Below, in pieces: positions 15,831-40,191 of a DNA stretch of 40,191 nucleotides. Location: positions 1 to 40,191 of the IMG/VR virus record IMGVR_UViG_3300006931_000018, one strand, 5' to 3'. Position numbers and translations under genes: made by a program. Origin of the DNA: a virus. How positions within the stretch are numbered: the stretch's first letter is position 1; each line of letters starts with the position of its first letter. The notes beneath the pieces are model-generated. The model saw only the letters and a list, made by a program, of their open reading frames with translations. It searched no databases and was not told where the DNA came from.

Positions 15831-17105
15831 ATGGCAGACCTCACCGTTTCAGCAAATATTGATACGCTTATGCAGGCGGCAAATTTTGCCGCAGCAAAAA
15901 CGTCGCTTGGGTTGGGTACAGGCGACAGTCCGCAATTCACGGCGGTCAATATCGGCGCGGCGACGGATACGACCGTTTCTCGCACATCGGCGGGGGTTAT
16001 CAACGTCGAAGGTAAAGACGTTTACATGGTTGGAGGGGCCGATGTGGCGGTAGCTGATGGCGGCACGGGGGCCTCAACGCTAGCAGCCCACAGCGTTTTA
16101 GTCGGCAATGGAACAAGTGCGGTATCTGGAGTTGCTCCAGGGACTAGCGGAAACGTCCTTACTTCTGATGGCACCGACTGGCTGAGCGCAGCCCCCCCAT
16201 CTGGAACGCTGCCGAGTCAGACGGGAAATAGCGGCAAATATTTAACAACCGATGGCTCCAGTGCATCATGGGCCACCGTTTCTGGAGGAACCGTATTGGT
16301 CCAAACCCAGGACTTCCGCCTCACGACGGAATCCGGAGTCCCAGTAAGTCCCTCCAATCGCACGGCGCAATCGACGCTTTACTTCACGCCCGCGAACGGA
16401 AACCAAATTGCCCTTTATAGCGGCTCAGCCTGGGTGATGATTTCTAGCGCAGAGGTCTCTCTTGCCTTAAGCGGACTCACCAGCGGCAAGAATTACGATG
16501 TCTTTGCCTACAATAATTCTGGAACGCTTACCTTAGAACTTTCTGCGGCATGGGCGGGTGATAATACGCCGACCGATAGCATCGTCTTGCAAGATGGCAT
16601 TCCGTGTAAGTCTGGCGCGTTAACGAGGCGCTGGATTGGCACGATCCGCACGACCGGAACTACCACGGTCGAGGATAGTGAAGCGAACCGATTTGTCTGG
16701 AATTTGAACAATCAAGCGCAGCGCCGGTTGTACAGAACCGATGCCAGTTCAACCCATAGCTACGCAACGGGCACATGGCGGCAGTGGAACGGCGGCACGG
16801 GTGGGCCGCATCAAGTGCAGTTTGTCTCCGGCAATGCCCTAACCATCGGGTTGGGCGGTTGGGTCGATTCGAAAAAGAATGCGAGCGGAGATACGGACGT
16901 ATGTGTTTATGACCTTGCCCTAAACACAACAACTGCTGGTGGCGATGCCTCGATTACAACCGGATGGGTTGCTTCTGGTAAGGTTGGTTATGGAGCTGCA
17001 TCACAATCGTTGGCCGGATATAATTATATTTCGATCAATGAAATTGCCTTTGGGTCTGGTGGAACAGGCAACTTCTACGCAATTTCGGTGCTTCTGTTCA
17101 ACTGA
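15831..17105 (+). CDS. Tail fibre protein
   Basis: It encodes 424 residues. The N-terminal ~160 residues carry tail-fibre shaft motifs (TSLGLGTGDSPQFTAVNIG, VADGGTGASTLAAHSVLVGN, GNVLTSDGTDW). Residues ~165-424 form a beta-rich globular region (YFTPANGNQIALYSGSAWVM, then aromatic and Gly-rich strands) that is probably the receptor-binding head. Fibre shafts trimerise. It lies just upstream of the GH43-like protein, which supports a host-recognition role. Confidence 0.82.
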   Translation: MADLTVSANIDTLMQAANFAAAKTSLGLGTGDSPQFTAVNIGAATDTTVSRTSAGVINVEGKDVYMVGGADVAVADGGTGASTLAAHSVLVGNGTSAVSGVAPGTSGNVLTSDGTDWLSAAPPSGTLPSQTGNSGKYLTTDGSSASWATVSGGTVLVQTQDFRLTTESGVPVSPSNRTAQSTLYFTPANGNQIALYSGSAWVMISSAEVSLALSGLTSGKNYDVFAYNNSGTLTLELSAAWAGDNTPTDSIVLQDGIPCKSGALTRRWIGTIRTTGTTTVEDSEANRFVWNLNNQAQRRLYRTDASSTHSYATGTWRQWNGGTGGPHQVQFVSGNALTIGLGGWVDSKKNASGDTDVCVYDLALNTTTAGGDASITTGWVASGKVGYGAASQSLAGYNYISINEIAFGSGGTGNFYAISVLLFN

Positions 17106-17108
17106 GCC

Positions 17109-18080
17109 GTGGCGTCCGTCCCCATCAGCATCCGGCCCTTTAGGTATGCCGGAAACCCGACGATTACGCTCCCGGTAGGGACGTGGTATTCGTCGCAGAT
17201 TTACGATTTTAATGTTCTTGTTGATCCGACCGACTCCACGAAGCTGATGATGTTTTGTAGCGGCATGGCGGCTCCCGTAGCGGTAGGGACGCAGTCCATC
17301 GGTCTATTCCGAGCCAATGTGTCGGACCCATATACGTGGACCGAAGTGGGGCAGGTGATTACGCCGACGGAATCTTGGGAAAACGGCTTATGCCGATTGG
17401 GATCTGTTATCTATGATAGTGGCACATTTTATCTTTTTTATTCTGGAGATGCGACCGGGGAAAAGATTGGGGTTGCGACGAGTACAGACAACGGGGCGAC
17501 GTTCACAAAATACGCCAGCAACCCGATTCTAACTCCAACGGGCCAGGGAAGAAATGATGGCGACTACGTTTCGGAGCCGGCGGTCATCAAAGAGGGGTCA
17601 GCCTGGACGATGATTTATAGCTATCGGAATGGAGCCACCATTCTGCCGGGTTTTAGGTATGCAACAAGTAGCGATGGCTTCGCTTGGACCAAGGGCGGCT
17701 CGGGTGATGTTCTCACGACCGCCCCCCTCTATGGTGAATTCCATCAGATTCTAAAAAAAGACGGGTTATATTATCTGGTTTACGAGGCCGGAAGCACGAC
17801 AGTGCCATACCGAATTTTTATGGCGACAAGCAGCGTCGTTACCGGGCCATTTGTTACCACCCAGGCAAGCCCAATTTTGTTGGAAAGCGGAGTCGTGGGG
17901 TCGTTTGATCGTTATCACGTAGCAACGCCATGTCTCGCAGAAATCTCTGGGCGATGGCTCTTGTTTTATAGCGGAGCGGGCGACCACGATCAGCCCTATG
18001 GCACGAATCATTGGCCGGGCGGAATGGCGGAGTTCGCCGCAAGGCCGTGCGGATACTCGAGCCGAAATCTTGCCCTGTGA
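17109..18080 (+). CDS. GH43/GH32-like five-bladed beta-propeller, candidate tail depolymerase
   Basis: It encodes 323 residues from a GTG start 3 bases after the fibre stop. It contains repeating blade motifs (FYLFYSGDATGEKIGVATST, SAWTMIYSYRNG, FRYATSSDGFAWTK, LYYLVYEAGS, RWLLFYSGAG). This pattern is typical of the five-bladed propeller of glycoside hydrolases such as GH43, GH32 and GH130. Position after the fibre suggests a tail-attached enzyme or binder acting on host surface glycans. Catalytic acids cannot be assigned from sequence alone, so it may be binding-only. Confidence 0.72.
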   Translation: MASVPISIRPFRYAGNPTITLPVGTWYSSQIYDFNVLVDPTDSTKLMMFCSGMAAPVAVGTQSIGLFRANVSDPYTWTEVGQVITPTESWENGLCRLGSVIYDSGTFYLFYSGDATGEKIGVATSTDNGATFTKYASNPILTPTGQGRNDGDYVSEPAVIKEGSAWTMIYSYRNGATILPGFRYATSSDGFAWTKGGSGDVLTTAPLYGEFHQILKKDGLYYLVYEAGSTTVPYRIFMATSSVVTGPFVTTQASPILLESGVVGSFDRYHVATPCLAEISGRWLLFYSGAGDHDQPYGTNHWPGGMAEFAARPCGYSSRNLAL

Positions 18081-18154
18081 TGCCGCAACGGCGCGTTCTT
18101 TTGCTGGTTGGCGTGATCCTGGCGGTGATTGCCATTATTTTCTTCTGCTCGTGA
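18080..18154 (+). CDS. 24-residue membrane peptide
   Basis: The start overlaps the previous stop (TGATG), and the stop overlaps the next GTG start (GTGA). It encodes MPQRRVLLLVGVILAVIAII followed by FFCS. This is a basic N-terminus and one hydrophobic helix ending in Cys. Overlaps at both ends are the main evidence. It could be a lysis-related membrane peptide or a coupling leader; neither is proved. Confidence 0.5.
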   Translation: MPQRRVLLLVGVILAVIAIIFFCS

Positions 18155-18894
18155 ACCGCTCTAATCAAAGCGGCGTCGCACCTCTGGTCATTGTTGCCGT
18201 TCTCGCCCTAATCGGAATCGGGGCTGTCGCCTTTAAGCCCAAATGGTTCCACGGCGATTCGCAGCGGGCGGCGACCTCCCAGAAGACGACCGAGGCCCTG
18301 CTCGCCTCCGAAAAGAAGCTTTCCGCCCAGGCGGCGGCTTCGGTGACGATGATTGGGCAGGCGAACACCCAGGCGCCGGAGTCGCCCGTAAAGGAATTCA
18401 TCGCGCGGGAGGTGCCGGTGGCCTTGGCCGTTCTGGAGCCGCCAGACCCGATGGCGCTCGTCGCGGCGGAAAAAAGGAAGAACTCTGTTTTGGAGGGGAA
18501 GATCGAGGTGATCGAACGCTTGTACGGCGACCAGGCAAAAATTGCCGAATCCCTACGGAAAGAGAATGCGGCTGTCTTGGCCGAAAAGCGGCGTTCTGAC
18601 GCAGAATTAGCCGAAGTGGCGGCAGAGAGGCTTGGGGCCGAGAAAAACGCCGCACGGTGGCTTATTTTGGCCGTGGCGGGCCTTGTACTGTACGTATACG
18701 TGAAGCTGACTCACATTGGGCCGGGAGCCTTGGCGGAAGCGGTGTCGGATATGAGGAAACAGGGGGCAACGGGCGGGATCGTTGCTTTGGATGGGGTCAC
18801 GAGCCGCTTGCAGCAAAGTATGGTTCGCCTCATCAACAAACTGAAAACCCACCCCGACCCCGAACCCCGTCCTCCGATCCAGCCCACCCAATGA
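18151..18894 (+). CDS. Two-helix membrane protein with coiled-coil domain
   Basis: It encodes 247 residues from GTG 18151; longer upstream extensions would overlap the propeller gene. One membrane segment is at residues ~10-27 (VAPLVIVAVLALIGIGAV). A long charged coiled coil follows at ~30-165, and a second membrane segment (WLILAVAGLVLYVYVKL) lies at ~168-184. The tail is Pro-rich. Such an architecture occurs in phage lysis or envelope proteins, but I do not recognise a family. It overlaps both neighbours by four bases. Confidence 0.68.
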   Translation: MNRSNQSGVAPLVIVAVLALIGIGAVAFKPKWFHGDSQRAATSQKTTEALLASEKKLSAQAAASVTMIGQANTQAPESPVKEFIAREVPVALAVLEPPDPMALVAAEKRKNSVLEGKIEVIERLYGDQAKIAESLRKENAAVLAEKRRSDAELAEVAAERLGAEKNAARWLILAVAGLVLYVYVKLTHIGPGALAEAVSDMRKQGATGGIVALDGVTSRLQQSMVRLINKLKTHPDPEPRPPIQPTQ

Positions 18895-19151
18895 AAATCC
18901 CCTTCATGCTTTCCCACGATGACTGGAAAGGAATTAAGGCAAAGGAGATCGATCAACTGGGGCGAAGGAAGTTCAAGAATCCCGAGCAGGAAAAGCAGCT
19001 TGAAATCTTTCACATCATGGACCTACGAGTGGAGTGGGCGTGCGCGCGATTGGTGGTGGTCAACAACTTGCTGCTGATCCTTTGCGCGCTCTTAATTTTA
19101 ATCAACGGAACCCAAGTCCTTGGTCTGATACAAACGTGGCTCGGCAAATGA
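18891..19151 (+). CDS. Small single-pass membrane protein
   Basis: It encodes 86 residues from ATG 18891, overlapping the previous stop (ATGA). Residues ~1-50 are hydrophilic. One hydrophobic helix lies at ~54-75 (LVVVNNLLLILCALLILING). The stop overlaps the start of the receiver-domain gene (ATGA), so these genes are probably made together. A lysis or envelope role is possible. No family is recognised. Confidence 0.66.
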   Translation: MKIPFMLSHDDWKGIKAKEIDQLGRRKFKNPEQEKQLEIFHIMDLRVEWACARLVVVNNLLLILCALLILINGTQVLGLIQTWLGK

Positions 19152-19624
19152 AACTAAGCCTACCTCCATTTGTCCCGAAAAAGTCCTCTCAACCCGAGGA
19201 AAGTCTCTCAACGCAGATGGAACGGGCGATGTGCCCCACCGATAAGCGGGTCTTGTTCGTCGAGGACGACATGCACTTTCGAGAATACATTGAGGATGTG
19301 GTGGCGCCCAAGTTCGACGTGGACGTTGTCTGTTGCGAGCGGTCGAGCCAGGCGGACAAGCGGCTGGAGGAGGAGCCCTTTGATGCGGCGATCTTGGATG
19401 TGAGAGTCACCAATGGGAATGGCGTTTCCCTTTACAAAAAGATCATGCAAAGGTGGCCGTCCCTCCAGGTGATCTTTTTGACAGGTTACGATTCGACGCA
19501 TTTACGGGAAGAGATTGAGCACATCGGCCCGGCGCGGATTTACAGCAAGGACTCAATGATGAAGCCCATGTTTTTCGAAAGCCTCATGGCCCAGATTGGC
19601 GTGCAGCGGCGGTCGGTGGCGTGA
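19148..19624 (+). CDS. Stand-alone CheY-like response-regulator receiver domain
   Basis: It encodes 158 residues from ATG 19148 (ATGA overlap with the previous stop). The receiver active site is complete: E39-D40-D41 in RVLFVEDDMHF, phosphoacceptor D84 in AILDVRVTNGNG, T112 in VIFLTGYD, and K134 in IYSKDSM. The spacing D40 to D84 is 44, as in CheY. A ~30-residue disordered N-terminus precedes it, and there is no DNA-binding output domain. Response regulators take phosphate from host histidine kinases, so it may intercept or mimic host signalling. That role is inferred. Confidence 0.88.
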   Translation: MKLSLPPFVPKKSSQPEESLSTQMERAMCPTDKRVLFVEDDMHFREYIEDVVAPKFDVDVVCCERSSQADKRLEEEPFDAAILDVRVTNGNGVSLYKKIMQRWPSLQVIFLTGYDSTHLREEIEHIGPARIYSKDSMMKPMFFESLMAQIGVQRRSVA

Positions 19625-19650: not shown

Positions 19651-19917
19651 GTGGGGATGCACGGCGAACACGATCATGAGTTGATTCATGCTATTCGGGA
19701 TTTAGCTGCTGCTGTGCGGGAGCGCAGTCGTTGCGCGGCTCAACCTTTAGCCACGAAAGCCGATTTGGAAAAACAGACTGAACGCGTGCTCGTGGCCATC
19801 AACGCCATCGATTCAAAGGATATTTCCTCCGAAGATAAAGCGGCCCTGGCGGGACTGCTCCTTAGGAGCGAGCGCTTCACGGCAAAAATGGAAGCCCTCG
19901 ATCAAAAGACCCCCTAA
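19651..19917 (+). CDS. Small coiled-coil protein, paralogue of the next gene
   Basis: It encodes 88 residues from GTG 19651, or 86 from ATG 19657. Helical throughout. The C-terminus (FTAKMEALDQKTP) matches the next gene's end (IATKIEALDSLTPP), and both have an EDKA/EDQA segment before it. This suggests an old tandem duplication. Similar short proteins are common near tail and lysis genes. Function is unknown. Confidence 0.65.
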   Translation: MGMHGEHDHELIHAIRDLAAAVRERSRCAAQPLATKADLEKQTERVLVAINAIDSKDISSEDKAALAGLLLRSERFTAKMEALDQKTP

Positions 19918-19958: not shown

Positions 19959-20222
19959 ATGGCAAATTCACCCGCTATCGCCGACTTCGTCGCCAAACAA
20001 AACGCCTTCAATGACCGCCTCGATAAAGCCGTCGACGGCCTCGGCTCTGACATCAAGGCCCTGAACGACACGATTCAGAAGCTCCAAGAAACCCAAGGTC
20101 AGATTACGGCGGAGGACCAAGCCCTACTCGACCAGATCGAATCGCGCAGCGACACCATCGCGACCAAGATCGAAGCCCTGGACAGTCTTACTCCGCCCGC
20201 TGTCCCGGCCCCGACGGCCTGA
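19959..20222 (+). CDS. Small coiled-coil protein, paralogue of the previous gene
   Basis: It encodes 87 residues with a heptad-like helix (DKAVDGLGSDIKALNDTIQK, then LLDQIESRSDTIATKIEALD) and a Pro/Ala tail. It shares the C-terminal KIEALD...TP signature with the gene just upstream. A terminator follows. Probably an oligomeric structural or accessory protein. Confidence 0.68.
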   Translation: MANSPAIADFVAKQNAFNDRLDKAVDGLGSDIKALNDTIQKLQETQGQITAEDQALLDQIESRSDTIATKIEALDSLTPPAVPAPTA

Positions 20223-20246
20223 TCCGACCCCAACCAACCCAATGTG

Positions 20247-20279
20247 ACGCCGGCTCCTCTAAAAAAGGACCGGCGTTTC
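20247..20279 (+). terminator. Probable rho-independent terminator
   Basis: ACGCCGG (20247-20253) pairs with CCGGCGT (20270-20276). TCC/GGA extends the stem around a single bulged C, with an A-rich loop. The tail TTTCTAGTTT is imperfect. Confidence 0.6.
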
Positions 20280-20309
20280 TAGTTTCAGCCCTCAACCCGA
20301 TCTCCTCTC

Positions 20310-20480
20310 ATGAACCTTTCCCTTCTTTTTTGGATTTTATATCTAATCGCCCTGGTTTTCAGCCTGTGGAGCAATTGGCCTGCAGGTGGCACGCTAAGGC
20401 CGCTCGGGGCTCCGCTACTCATTTTCGTTTTGATCGGGATTTTGGGGTGGAAAGTGTTTGGACAACCCGTACACGGCTGA
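20310..20480 (+). CDS. Small two-helix membrane protein, holin-like
   Basis: It encodes 56 residues with two hydrophobic helices: MNLSLLFWILYLIALVFSLW near the start and PLGAPLLIFVLIGILGWKVF near the end, joined by a short loop. This size and layout resemble small class II holin-type proteins, and terminators lie on either side. No endolysin is adjacent, so holin is only a candidate role. Confidence 0.6.
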   Translation: MNLSLLFWILYLIALVFSLWSNWPAGGTLRPLGAPLLIFVLIGILGWKVFGQPVHG

Positions 20481-25715: not shown

Positions 25716-26096
25716 TTATTTTCCTCCGGCCATCCGTGAAGCGTGAGGCAGGGCGGTGGTGTCGAGTTCCCGCTTCGCCTTCGCCACGGCCTCCATGAAG
25801 TTTGCGCCGGTCGCGATCCATGGGTTCGTACTCATTACGTGAGCCGGAGCCTTTACGTGGAAGTCGATGTTCCCGACGTTTGCCTCAATCCATTCGATGA
25901 GTTCAGCGCCAGCGATGAGCTTATCGAGCAGGTCAATGCTGGTCATCACGGCTACCTCAGGTCCGCCGGGTCGGCTTTGCATACGCGAGAAGGCCACATC
26001 GGCCTTGGCTTGTTCTAGGACGGTCTTGGGTGTGGTTTTAGAGGGCATAATTGTGTGCAGAATGCGGAGCGGTTTGGGGTGAGATAGATGCTTCAT
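25716..26096 (-). CDS. Hypothetical protein, last in the four-base-overlap chain
   Basis: It encodes 126 residues from ATG 26096 (ATGA). A second ATG at 26048 (MPSKTTPKTVLEQAKADVAF) would make a shorter protein, but the overlap favours the upstream start. It has a helical body (SIDLLDKLIAGAELIEWIEA). No family is recognised. Confidence 0.6.
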   Translation of the reverse strand: MKHLSHPKPLRILHTIMPSKTTPKTVLEQAKADVAFSRMQSRPGGPEVAVMTSIDLLDKLIAGAELIEWIEANVGNIDFHVKAPAHVMSTNPWIATGANFMEAVAKAKRELDTTALPHASRMAGGK

Positions 26097-26356
26097 CCCT
26101 TCTCCTTCCCGTCGTTAAGCGGCGCGCTAGGCATGGGGACGATGGCGGGCTCGATTTCGTCGCGAGTTACCCAGAAATGATTCGGGTAGTTGTCGGTCTT
26201 CACGAGGTGCCAATGCTGGCTATCGCATTCGATCACCGTTCCGGTTTCGCCTTTCTCCGCAAAGAGCCTGCCTGGGTGTTCTTCGCAGGGCGGTTCGGTC
26301 AGCGTGCGCGTGAAGCGAATGCGAGCGCCTACCATGAGTTGTTCCGTCGGGCTCAT
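26093..26356 (-). CDS. Small beta-barrel-like protein
   Basis: It encodes 87 residues. VGARIRFTRTLTEPPCEEH, GETGTVIECDSQHWHLVKTD and HFWVTRDEIEP look like strands of a small SH3/KOW-type barrel. This could be a nucleic-acid or protein-binding module. ATGA overlaps at both ends. Confidence 0.6.
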   Translation of the reverse strand: MSPTEQLMVGARIRFTRTLTEPPCEEHPGRLFAEKGETGTVIECDSQHWHLVKTDNYPNHFWVTRDEIEPAIVPMPSAPLNDGKEKG

Positions 26357-35275: not shown

Positions 35276-35407
35276 TTATAGCAGCCTCATGAGGGATTTG
35301 GCTGTAAGCCAGAAAATGATGGAAATGCTGGCGAGCCCAAGAACCATGAAGAAAAAGCTGCCCACGATGATGAGGCAGGCGACGAGATTGGCGCAGGCGC
35401 GTTTCAT
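35276..35407 (-). CDS. 43-residue membrane peptide
   Basis: The ATG at 35407 overlaps the stop of the GT-FkbM gene (ATGA). It encodes a Lys/Arg/Cys N-terminus (MKRACANLVACLIIVGSFFF) and a second hydrophobic stretch (LGLASISIIFWLTAKS). One or two membrane helices are likely. The overlap and the clear hydrophobic pattern support it. It may work with the glycosyltransferase fusion. Confidence 0.6.
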   Translation of the reverse strand: MKRACANLVACLIIVGSFFFMVLGLASISIIFWLTAKSLMRLL

Positions 35408-36765
35408 AGCTTCAGGAATTTGAGGATGCCGCGATGAGTGGAGTGGATGGCCTGGGAGTAAAGGGTGAAGCCGTGGGATTTGAGAAGGTCGGTGATGGCG
35501 ATGCGATGGGAGTCGGCGTGGAATTCGAGCACGATGGCCTTGAATGCAGAAAGGCGGTTTGTGTCAGCGAGACGTTGGAGGATGAGGGGTTCAGCGCCTT
35601 CGGCATCGATTTTGAGAATGTCCGCGGAAGGAAGTTCGACTGCATCTAGGCATTGGACGGATATAGATGTTTTACCGAGTTTTAGGTCGTCGCGAAGGAC
35701 CGTGGTGTGTTCGCCGCAGTTGAAACCGCAGGGGTAGAGATCGATATAGCCTGATTTATCTGAAACGGCCTGTTGATAAATGCTCGGGACATTGTGGCAA
35801 TTTTGAATCGATTGAACCGTTCCGCGAAGAAGCCCAAAGTTGGATGGATTGGGTTCGTAGCAATGGATGGTTGCTCCAGGCCAGCGTTGAAAAGCCCAGC
35901 GGGCGAAGGCCCCGATGTTGGCTCCGATGTCGAGAATTGTCGGCGGCTCTGCTGGGTCGAACGCGATGTCGTAACAACCCTCGAGGACATCGCGGCAATG
36001 GTCGGCAGAAAGGCCGGGCCTGATGTAATCGGCAGGCCAGAGCGGCTCTCCATCGCGCAGGACCGAGAAAGCGGTTTTAGGGGCATCAGCGGGGTCAGAA
36101 ACCGGCTCTGCAAGCGGCTCCTGCAACTCCAGCGGGAAGTCGATGGCGCCAGCATGGGGAATAAGGAGCTGGGTATCGACGTGGACCGGAAAACCGGAGA
36201 CCTGGGCAAGGCGAATGAAGCCGTAGTCTTCTCCGAGGTAATTGCCGTCGACGATTTCGAATGGGAAAAGCTGATGATAGGCGGTTGGAGCTGATTCGCC
36301 TTCATTCATGAGGGTGTAGGCCCTTTCTGGCGTATCAGAGATTATCTTACGGAAGACGTGGGTCTTGATCTTGGAGAAACCGATGGCACACCGCGACACG
36401 ACTTCTAGGCCTGTTTTTGGATCGGGGACATTGCCCGCGATTCGCTGGACGTTGAAATGGGTCTTGGGGTCTTTCTTCGCGTAGAAGCCGCAGACAATAT
36501 CGGGCTCGGCATGGCTGATTAGCCGGTGAAACATGGCGAGATTTGGCTTTAGATCGATGTCCCACATAATCAGCTCATCGAAGCCGTATTTCAGGGCGTA
36601 ATCGGCCATCTGGTCCCGCGCCCAGTTGATGCCGCCTGTCTGACAATACATGAATCCAAGCGTGATTCCTTGGGTTCGTGGAGCGGTGAGCAGTTCAACG
36701 AGCGCCTTCATGTACGCGGCTGGAAAGCTGCCTATGACAGGGCTACTAATCAGGATTTTACGCAT
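35404..36765 (-). CDS. Glycosyltransferase - FkbM methyltransferase fusion
   Basis: It encodes 453 residues from ATG 36765; a TTG 39 bases upstream is weaker. Residues ~1-215 are a glycosyltransferase-like domain with a DxD motif (MWDID, D69 and D71) and Asp/His-rich loops (GEDYGFIRLAQVSGFPVHVD). Residues ~245-453 are an FkbM-type methyltransferase with a SAM-binding loop (ILDIGANIGAFARW, 277-290) and KIDAEGAE (~385). It would transfer a sugar and methylate a glycan. The substrate could be virion, host surface or DNA; not determined. Confidence 0.83.
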   Translation of the reverse strand: MRKILISSPVIGSFPAAYMKALVELLTAPRTQGITLGFMYCQTGGINWARDQMADYALKYGFDELIMWDIDLKPNLAMFHRLISHAEPDIVCGFYAKKDPKTHFNVQRIAGNVPDPKTGLEVVSRCAIGFSKIKTHVFRKIISDTPERAYTLMNEGESAPTAYHQLFPFEIVDGNYLGEDYGFIRLAQVSGFPVHVDTQLLIPHAGAIDFPLELQEPLAEPVSDPADAPKTAFSVLRDGEPLWPADYIRPGLSADHCRDVLEGCYDIAFDPAEPPTILDIGANIGAFARWAFQRWPGATIHCYEPNPSNFGLLRGTVQSIQNCHNVPSIYQQAVSDKSGYIDLYPCGFNCGEHTTVLRDDLKLGKTSISVQCLDAVELPSADILKIDAEGAEPLILQRLADTNRLSAFKAIVLEFHADSHRIAITDLLKSHGFTLYSQAIHSTHRGILKFLKL

Positions 36766-36769
36766 GAGT

Positions 36770-36898
36770 TCAGTGCTTGAGAAGGTATGGAACAAGTATC
36801 GCAATCAAAGAAATTATGATTGCCAGAATCGAGATTAGGTCGGTGTCCGGCATTCCTGCGTCTTCAAATCGCCGCCACAGGTATTTTATTTTACGCAT
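36770..36898 (-). CDS. 42-residue membrane peptide
   Basis: The ATG overlaps the upstream stop (TAATG) and the stop lies 4 bases before the GT-FkbM ATG. It encodes a basic N-terminus (MRKIKYLWRRFEDAGMPDTD) and one hydrophobic helix (LISILAIIISLIAILVPYLL). Clear single-pass membrane pattern. Confidence 0.62.
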   Translation of the reverse strand: MRKIKYLWRRFEDAGMPDTDLISILAIIISLIAILVPYLLKH

Positions 36899-39840: not shown

Positions 39841-40191
39841 GTGTCATCCTTCACTGGCAGCGATACCGCGCAAACCGAAGAATCTGGCCTACAACTCGCC
39901 CCGGTTGGAGAAGATGGCCCCGATTTCACGCAGTTGCAGGCGGCTTTCCGTAAGTGCGTCTCAGATGCCCAGCCCTACGTTGACCAGTGTAGGCTCAATT
40001 ACGAAACCCGTTTCGCCATATGGTCAGGGCAGAGCGCGGATGGCAAAAAGCACTCTCGCGAAGGCAGCAAGATCGATCCCACGCCTTGGGATGGTGCATC
40101 AGACCTTCGGGTTTACCTGGTCGACAACGTCATCAATAAAAAGGTGGCGATGCAGTGCATGGCGGTTCGCAAAGCGAACTTAGTCGCCGTG
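39841..40191 (+). CDS. Portal protein, N-terminal part; continues at position 2
   Basis: It starts with GTG 39841; the next in-frame ATG would remove more than 90 residues and the WDGASDLRV motif. It encodes 117 residues here and runs off the window. The last 100 bases are the same as 1-100, so the full gene is 39841-40091 plus 1-1927. An acidic, disordered N-terminus precedes the conserved part. Confidence 0.85.
   Translation, partial: MSSFTGSDTAQTEESGLQLAPVGEDGPDFTQLQAAFRKCVSDAQPYVDQCRLNYETRFAIWSGQSADGKKHSREGSKIDPTPWDGASDLRVYLVDNVINKKVAMQCMAVRKANLVAV
40092..40191. repeat. Right copy of 100-bp terminal direct repeat
   Basis: Identical to 1-100. Removing one copy gives a circle of 40,091 bp with all genes intact. 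Confidence 0.95.

Follow-up and report, generated by a model that had tools for sequence, protein, structure and literature searches.

Few phage proteins are known to act on two-component signalling, and the 2023 paper on the phage protein PIT4 says that no direct interaction of a phage protein with a component of such a system had been reported before (PMC10714779). The idea of a CheY-like signalling gene in a phage is already in print: Alteromonas phages V22 (gp30) and A5 (gp11) encode stand-alone CheY-like proteins, described as auxiliary to a host-recognition module that distant phages have in common (PMC7289586, PMC10579305). In both phages the gene (25749-26198 of our record L350 for gp30; 6001-6444 of L356 for gp11) lies directly behind tail fibre and chaperone genes and overlaps the next gene. 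Our structure search also turned up an uncultured Caudovirales phage whose CheY-like receiver is free-standing. Given these precedents, the stand-alone receiver is already a known kind of phage protein.

Other described systems are relevant by mechanism. The CckA receiver has FxSGY, and the Rec-only proteins MrrA, SdrG, Sma0114 and CpdR have the related FATGUY motif (PMC9981736, PMC5964349). Intermediary receivers are thought to hand on phosphate passively, without a Y-T switch (PMC9981736), and the Rec-only FATGUY proteins are promiscuous phospho-hubs (PMC5964349). Sequestration of kinases by surplus receivers is documented (PMC10368727). Osp, a stand-alone receiver-like protein of Rhodobacter sphaeroides, lacks the DD pair and the lysine and inhibits a histidine kinase (PMC9430884). 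Jumbo phages carry the receiver fold in cREC proteins, which are defined by linkage to NAD/ADP-ribose enzymes and by divergence from classical receivers (PMC7824862).

We describe a stand-alone receiver (REC) of 158 aa, P0001, from a phage record of 40,191 nt, the whole of which is the window analyzed here. The record has an exact 100-base direct terminal repeat (1-100 and 40092-40191) and is on that account probably a complete genome; the repeat may be genuinely terminal or may have arisen as an overlap in a (circular) assembly. Coordinates of the receiver gene, its key codons and its neighbors are collected in Table 1.

Table 1. Features of the receiver locus, with the evidence for each
Feature	Coordinates	Strand	Basis
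Probable tail-fibre protein	15831-17105	+	Position and character of the sequence alone; matches no family
GH43/GH32-like protein, tail-associated by position	17109..18080	+	PF04616, E=1.6e-13
ORF, coiled-coil-like in its middle, with two hydrophobic segments	17998..18894	+	Sequence; no convincing family match
86-aa protein with C-terminal hydrophobic region	18891..19151	+	Sequence; no family match
Receiver gene (P0001)	19148..19624	+	Sequence, profile and predicted fold
D40-D41 codons, acidic metal-binding pair	19265..19270	+	Aligned with receiver DD in bacterial receiver profile
D84 codon, predicted phospho-acceptor, end of strand 3	19397..19399	+	Strand 80-84 in both AlphaFold models
F110-L-T112-G-Y114 codons, conserved Thr inside FxTGY	19475..19489	+	Sequence; motif class in PMC9981736
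K134 codon, candidate active-site Lys (choice of the sequence-only reading)	19547..19549	+	Strand 5 end in single-sequence model
K139-P140 codons, alternative candidate Lys-Pro	19562..19567	+	Profile alignment, alignment-guided model
Small helical/coiled-coil protein	19651..19917	+	Weak CCDC90-like match
Small coiled-coil protein	19959..20222	+	Generic coiled-coil matches only
G+C-rich hairpin then short T run, terminator-like	20246..20282	+	RNA fold of 20215-20310, z=-2.19; sequence

The Pfam family Response_reg (PF00072) matches residues 35-135 of P0001 with E=2.2e-13 and 50.8 bits, against a cut-off of 30.2, values that set chance aside. It is the sole Pfam family on the protein, which has no output domain. 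Structure prediction, proposed as a check by an earlier sequence-only reading of this DNA, gave a receiver fold: AlphaFold modelled a (beta/alpha)5 domain when given an 18-row alignment (pLDDT 83) and again when given the single sequence (pLDDT 72). Two Foldseek searches returned 513 and 262 PDB matches at E<=0.001, receivers among them in hundreds, with receiver matches at E 4.5e-08 and including the receivers of NtrC1, FleR, PmrA and Spo0F. In a PDB sequence search the matches included NtrC1, DevR, AdeR and YycF, among other receivers. Of the solved sequences, the closest are receivers of NtrC type and OmpR type, not Sma0114 or SdrG.

The sequence-only reading had called this gene a phage-borne receiver with its phosphorylation site intact and no output domain. 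The gene lies where that reading placed it, D40, D41, D84, T112 and K134 are all present at the named positions, and sequence, profile and fold agree on a receiver whose acidic pair and phospho-acceptor are intact. The assignments of D40/D41, D84 and T112 are secure. The distance from the acceptor Asp to the Thr is 28 residues; in CheY it is 30. Position D+4, where Pro is usual, is T88. Since that Pro is replaced and the register of the lysine is unsettled, competence in phosphotransfer is not guaranteed.

The lysine is the one residue of the active site over which methods disagree, and the role given to K134 by the sequence-only reading is contested by K139. In the single-sequence model strand 5 ends at residue 133, which favors K134. 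The gap-free spacing of CheY is reproduced with T112+15 at G127 and T112+22 at K134, and the local Pfam match stops at 135. A bacterial receiver profile built without P0001 instead places K139-P140 on the canonical K-P, after a 5-residue insert that falls in the linker between strands 4 and 5. In the alignment-guided model strand 5 covers 136-138 and points to K139, the input alignment having already been in the K139 register. The run K139-P140-M-F-F-E-S-L146 matches the canonical K-P-x5-L of the turn from strand 5 to helix 5. On balance we lean somewhat toward K139 over K134 as the active-site lysine.

In either register the residue at K-3 is non-aromatic (I131 or S136), and P0001 lacks the aromatic of CheY-type Y-T switch receivers. 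After strand 4 it reads F110-L-T-G-Y114, that is F-x-S/T-G-Y in the form of the CckA receiver. In a background sample of 97 receivers from eight bacterial and archaeal genomes, biased to high-scoring, consensus-like domains, FxS/TGY occurs in none, S/TGY in three, and Tyr or Phe at K-3 in 95. P0001 shares with MrrA, SdrG, Sma0114 and the CckA receiver this motif, the Tyr at T+2 and the absence of a Y-T aromatic. It differs from the FATGUY proteins in having Leu, not Ala, before the Thr and Arg (R86), not Asn, at D+2, in its longer linker between strands 4 and 5, and in being phage-borne; close sequence kinship with them is not detectable. Because the Ala and the Asn of the full motif are missing, we call P0001 FATGUY-like and not a member. 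The best NCBIfam model is CpdR (NF046022; E=9e-12), at 45 bits against 36 for the next, and P0001 is Rec-only like this single-domain regulator of the CckA relay; that score is far under the curated cut-off of 180 bits, so it is not a member there either. The FxTGY motif together with the missing K-3 aromatic modestly favors assignment to a passive, phospho-intermediate class over a CheY-like allosteric switch.

Compared with its phage counterparts, P0001 resembles V22 gp30 and A5 gp11 in standing alone in a phage genome and in a similar place, insofar as the identity of the tail-fibre gene here rests on position and sequence character. The phages belong to different families and the receivers have different gene neighbors. 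Homology between P0001 and gp30 amounts to one 31-residue BLAST segment (E=5e-04, pairwise) and does not run along the domain. Strand 4 of gp30 is followed by S-G-S, and its K-3 residue is Tyr (DYIPKPF); in both it differs from P0001, and on these grounds it looks Y-T-type. In A5 gp11 the residues after strand 4 are S-H-S and the region from helix 4 to strand 5 is altered. P0001 is a new phage receiver, acquired separately from the other known ones and not close to those of V22 and A5.

Searches of viral_contigs and genome_contigs found no close relatives of P0001. Profile-like scans gave one weak viral receiver and 80 bacterial or archaeal ones, at 23-36% identity, too distant for the origin of P0001 to be placed from them. 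Six receivers aligned together proved too divergent to serve as a scan query. Many generic-receiver matches in INPHARED (records OR84xxxx, CAKLQ* and AFYI/AGRM) come from shotgun or bacterial contigs under a phage label; we set the INPHARED matches aside as evidence of genuine phage receivers, since shotgun records without annotation make up most of them and some are bacterial contigs entered as phage.

The rightward gene order is terminase, capsid, tail genes, probable tail fibre, GH43/GH32-like protein, two hydrophobic proteins, receiver, two small coiled-coil proteins and hairpin. Gene order suggests late expression, and the placement of the receiver at the end of a late operon in the sequence-only reading fits, with two small genes between it and the hairpin. 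That reading also had the receiver translationally coupled to small membrane proteins. The stop of the preceding gene does overlap the receiver start as ATGA (19148-19151), which is the single basis for coupling, and the start itself is uncertain. The first 30 residues lie outside the receiver domain and are poorly modelled in both AlphaFold models, and codons 1-23 have a GC3 of 0.48 against 0.76 in the remaining codons; for these two reasons translation may in fact begin at M24 (19217) or M28 (19229). The overlap thus favors 19148 and codon composition 19217 or 19229. Further upstream, the 17998..18894 ORF overlaps the gene before it and its own true start is uncertain. The GH43/GH32-like protein, directly behind the probable tail fibre, is possibly a glycan-binding or depolymerising tail part.

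The terminase, capsid and upper structural genes are common to many environmental contigs (capsid identity 64-78%), and relatives have hardly any counterpart to the region from ~9.7 to 34 kb. In a set of 100 related phage records PF00072 was not found once; 50 were mostly longer (5.8 to 56 kb; ~18 above 29 kb) and 50 mostly short fragments, which cannot show absence. From this count we take the receiver gene to be accessory. No relatives of the neighboring genes were found that could date its insertion. At the corresponding late end, one of the nearest relatives (G035; L156 15690-18451) has a gene for a tyrosine recombinase (phage integrase) and an ORF weakly resembling metallophosphatases, and that end therefore looks like a region of variable cargo. 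Among annotated phages the closest by capsid is C75C1, with no host on record. A search of our phage for the histidine kinase domain HATPase_c, as distinct from HisKA and HPt, gave no match.

The reading we lean toward, tentatively and at somewhat less than an even chance, is that P0001 drains or competes for host-kinase phosphate as a phosphoryl acceptor, rather than acting as a CheY-style switch. Late in infection, host histidine kinases or histidine phosphotransferases would pass phosphoryl groups to D84, and P0001 would hold or return them. As a phosphoryl sink or kinase competitor it would lower phosphorylation of host response regulators, leaving the host unable to finish a response (envelope, stress or motility) before it is lysed. 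We count in support the receiver domain and fold, the HATPase_c result, the count among relatives, the motif base rates, CpdR as top model, the place behind tail-fibre genes (as in V22 and A5) and the published findings on FATGUY hubs, passive intermediary receivers and kinase sequestration. Counted against it are the partial motif, the NtrC/OmpR type of the nearest solved sequences, the bias of the 97-receiver sample, T88, the lysine register and a kinase search confined to HATPase_c. Where the sequence-only reading offered that the protein could drain or mimic host signalling, the motif and the missing K-3 aromatic modestly favor draining; a mimic in the CheY sense, with an allosteric output face, is less favored because the Y-T residue is absent in both registers.

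That same residue puts CheY-type switching second, as an unlikely reading. Here P0001, phosphorylated by a host kinase, would bind a host target through its 4-5-5 face and alter host surface or motility, the target being possibly the flagellar motor, a type IV pilus regulator, a surface-polysaccharide enzyme or ClpX. Effector action is a common role of bacterial stand-alone receivers, one example being the activation of a phosphoglycosyl transferase by a single-domain regulator (PMC12802240), and a surface function would suit a position behind host-recognition genes; the lack of an aromatic found in nearly all sampled receivers stands against it. More doubtful still is inhibition independent of phosphorylation, in which P0001 would dock on the DHp/catalytic domains of a host kinase and block autophosphorylation, as Osp does on CckA. 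Besides Osp there is the precedent of PIT4, which binds the kinase domains of three two-component systems (PMC10714779), but PIT4 is an early gene and the receiver lies in a late-gene region. Where Osp lost the DD pair and Lys, P0001 retains DD, D and T and has a candidate Lys, which suggests selection for phospho-chemistry.

A captured receiver fragment without a function that matters to the phage, retained by chance in a variable region, is a reading we hold improbable to a similar degree. The absence of receivers from the relatives, a surrounding region that shares nothing with them and the lack of a close homologue in the collections searched all suit such a passenger. Its catalytic residues are intact, though, its coding-type composition is near that of the phage (GC 0.545 in the gene, 0.546 in the genome), it is tightly packed in a late gene run, and unrelated phages have receivers in a similar neighborhood. 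Least probable by far is a divergent cREC-like enzyme with the role proposed for the receivers of jumbo phages, the processing of cyclic nucleotides or cyclic ADP-ribose. Phage cREC proteins are among the weaker Foldseek matches; P0001, however, fits classical receivers far better than cREC, and no NAD/ADP-ribose enzyme was found among the scanned proteins of the window.

An intact receiver in a phage where no HATPase_c was found makes a simple testable case, with one acceptor residue and one substitution. Free-standing receivers have turned up repeatedly behind the tail-fibre genes of unrelated phages; this suggests selection for receivers there, and the pattern could be surveyed. We think it unlikely, taken as a single claim, both that P0001 is a FATGUY-like promiscuous sink draining several host two-component systems late, and that an effect on host surface signalling is the reason why stand-alone receivers recur beside the host-recognition genes of unrelated phages.

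Elsewhere in the 40,191-nt window no tRNA gene was found, and the defence library gave a weak PD-T4-6 match only. At 35404-36804 (-) an FkbM-type methyltransferase domain is fused to a region matching phrog_1574, and relatives of this protein recur in related phages. A Shine-Dalgarno-like motif stands upstream of only about a dozen of the 53 called genes and many starts read CC-ATG-G, a pattern that suggests a host with weak Shine-Dalgarno use.
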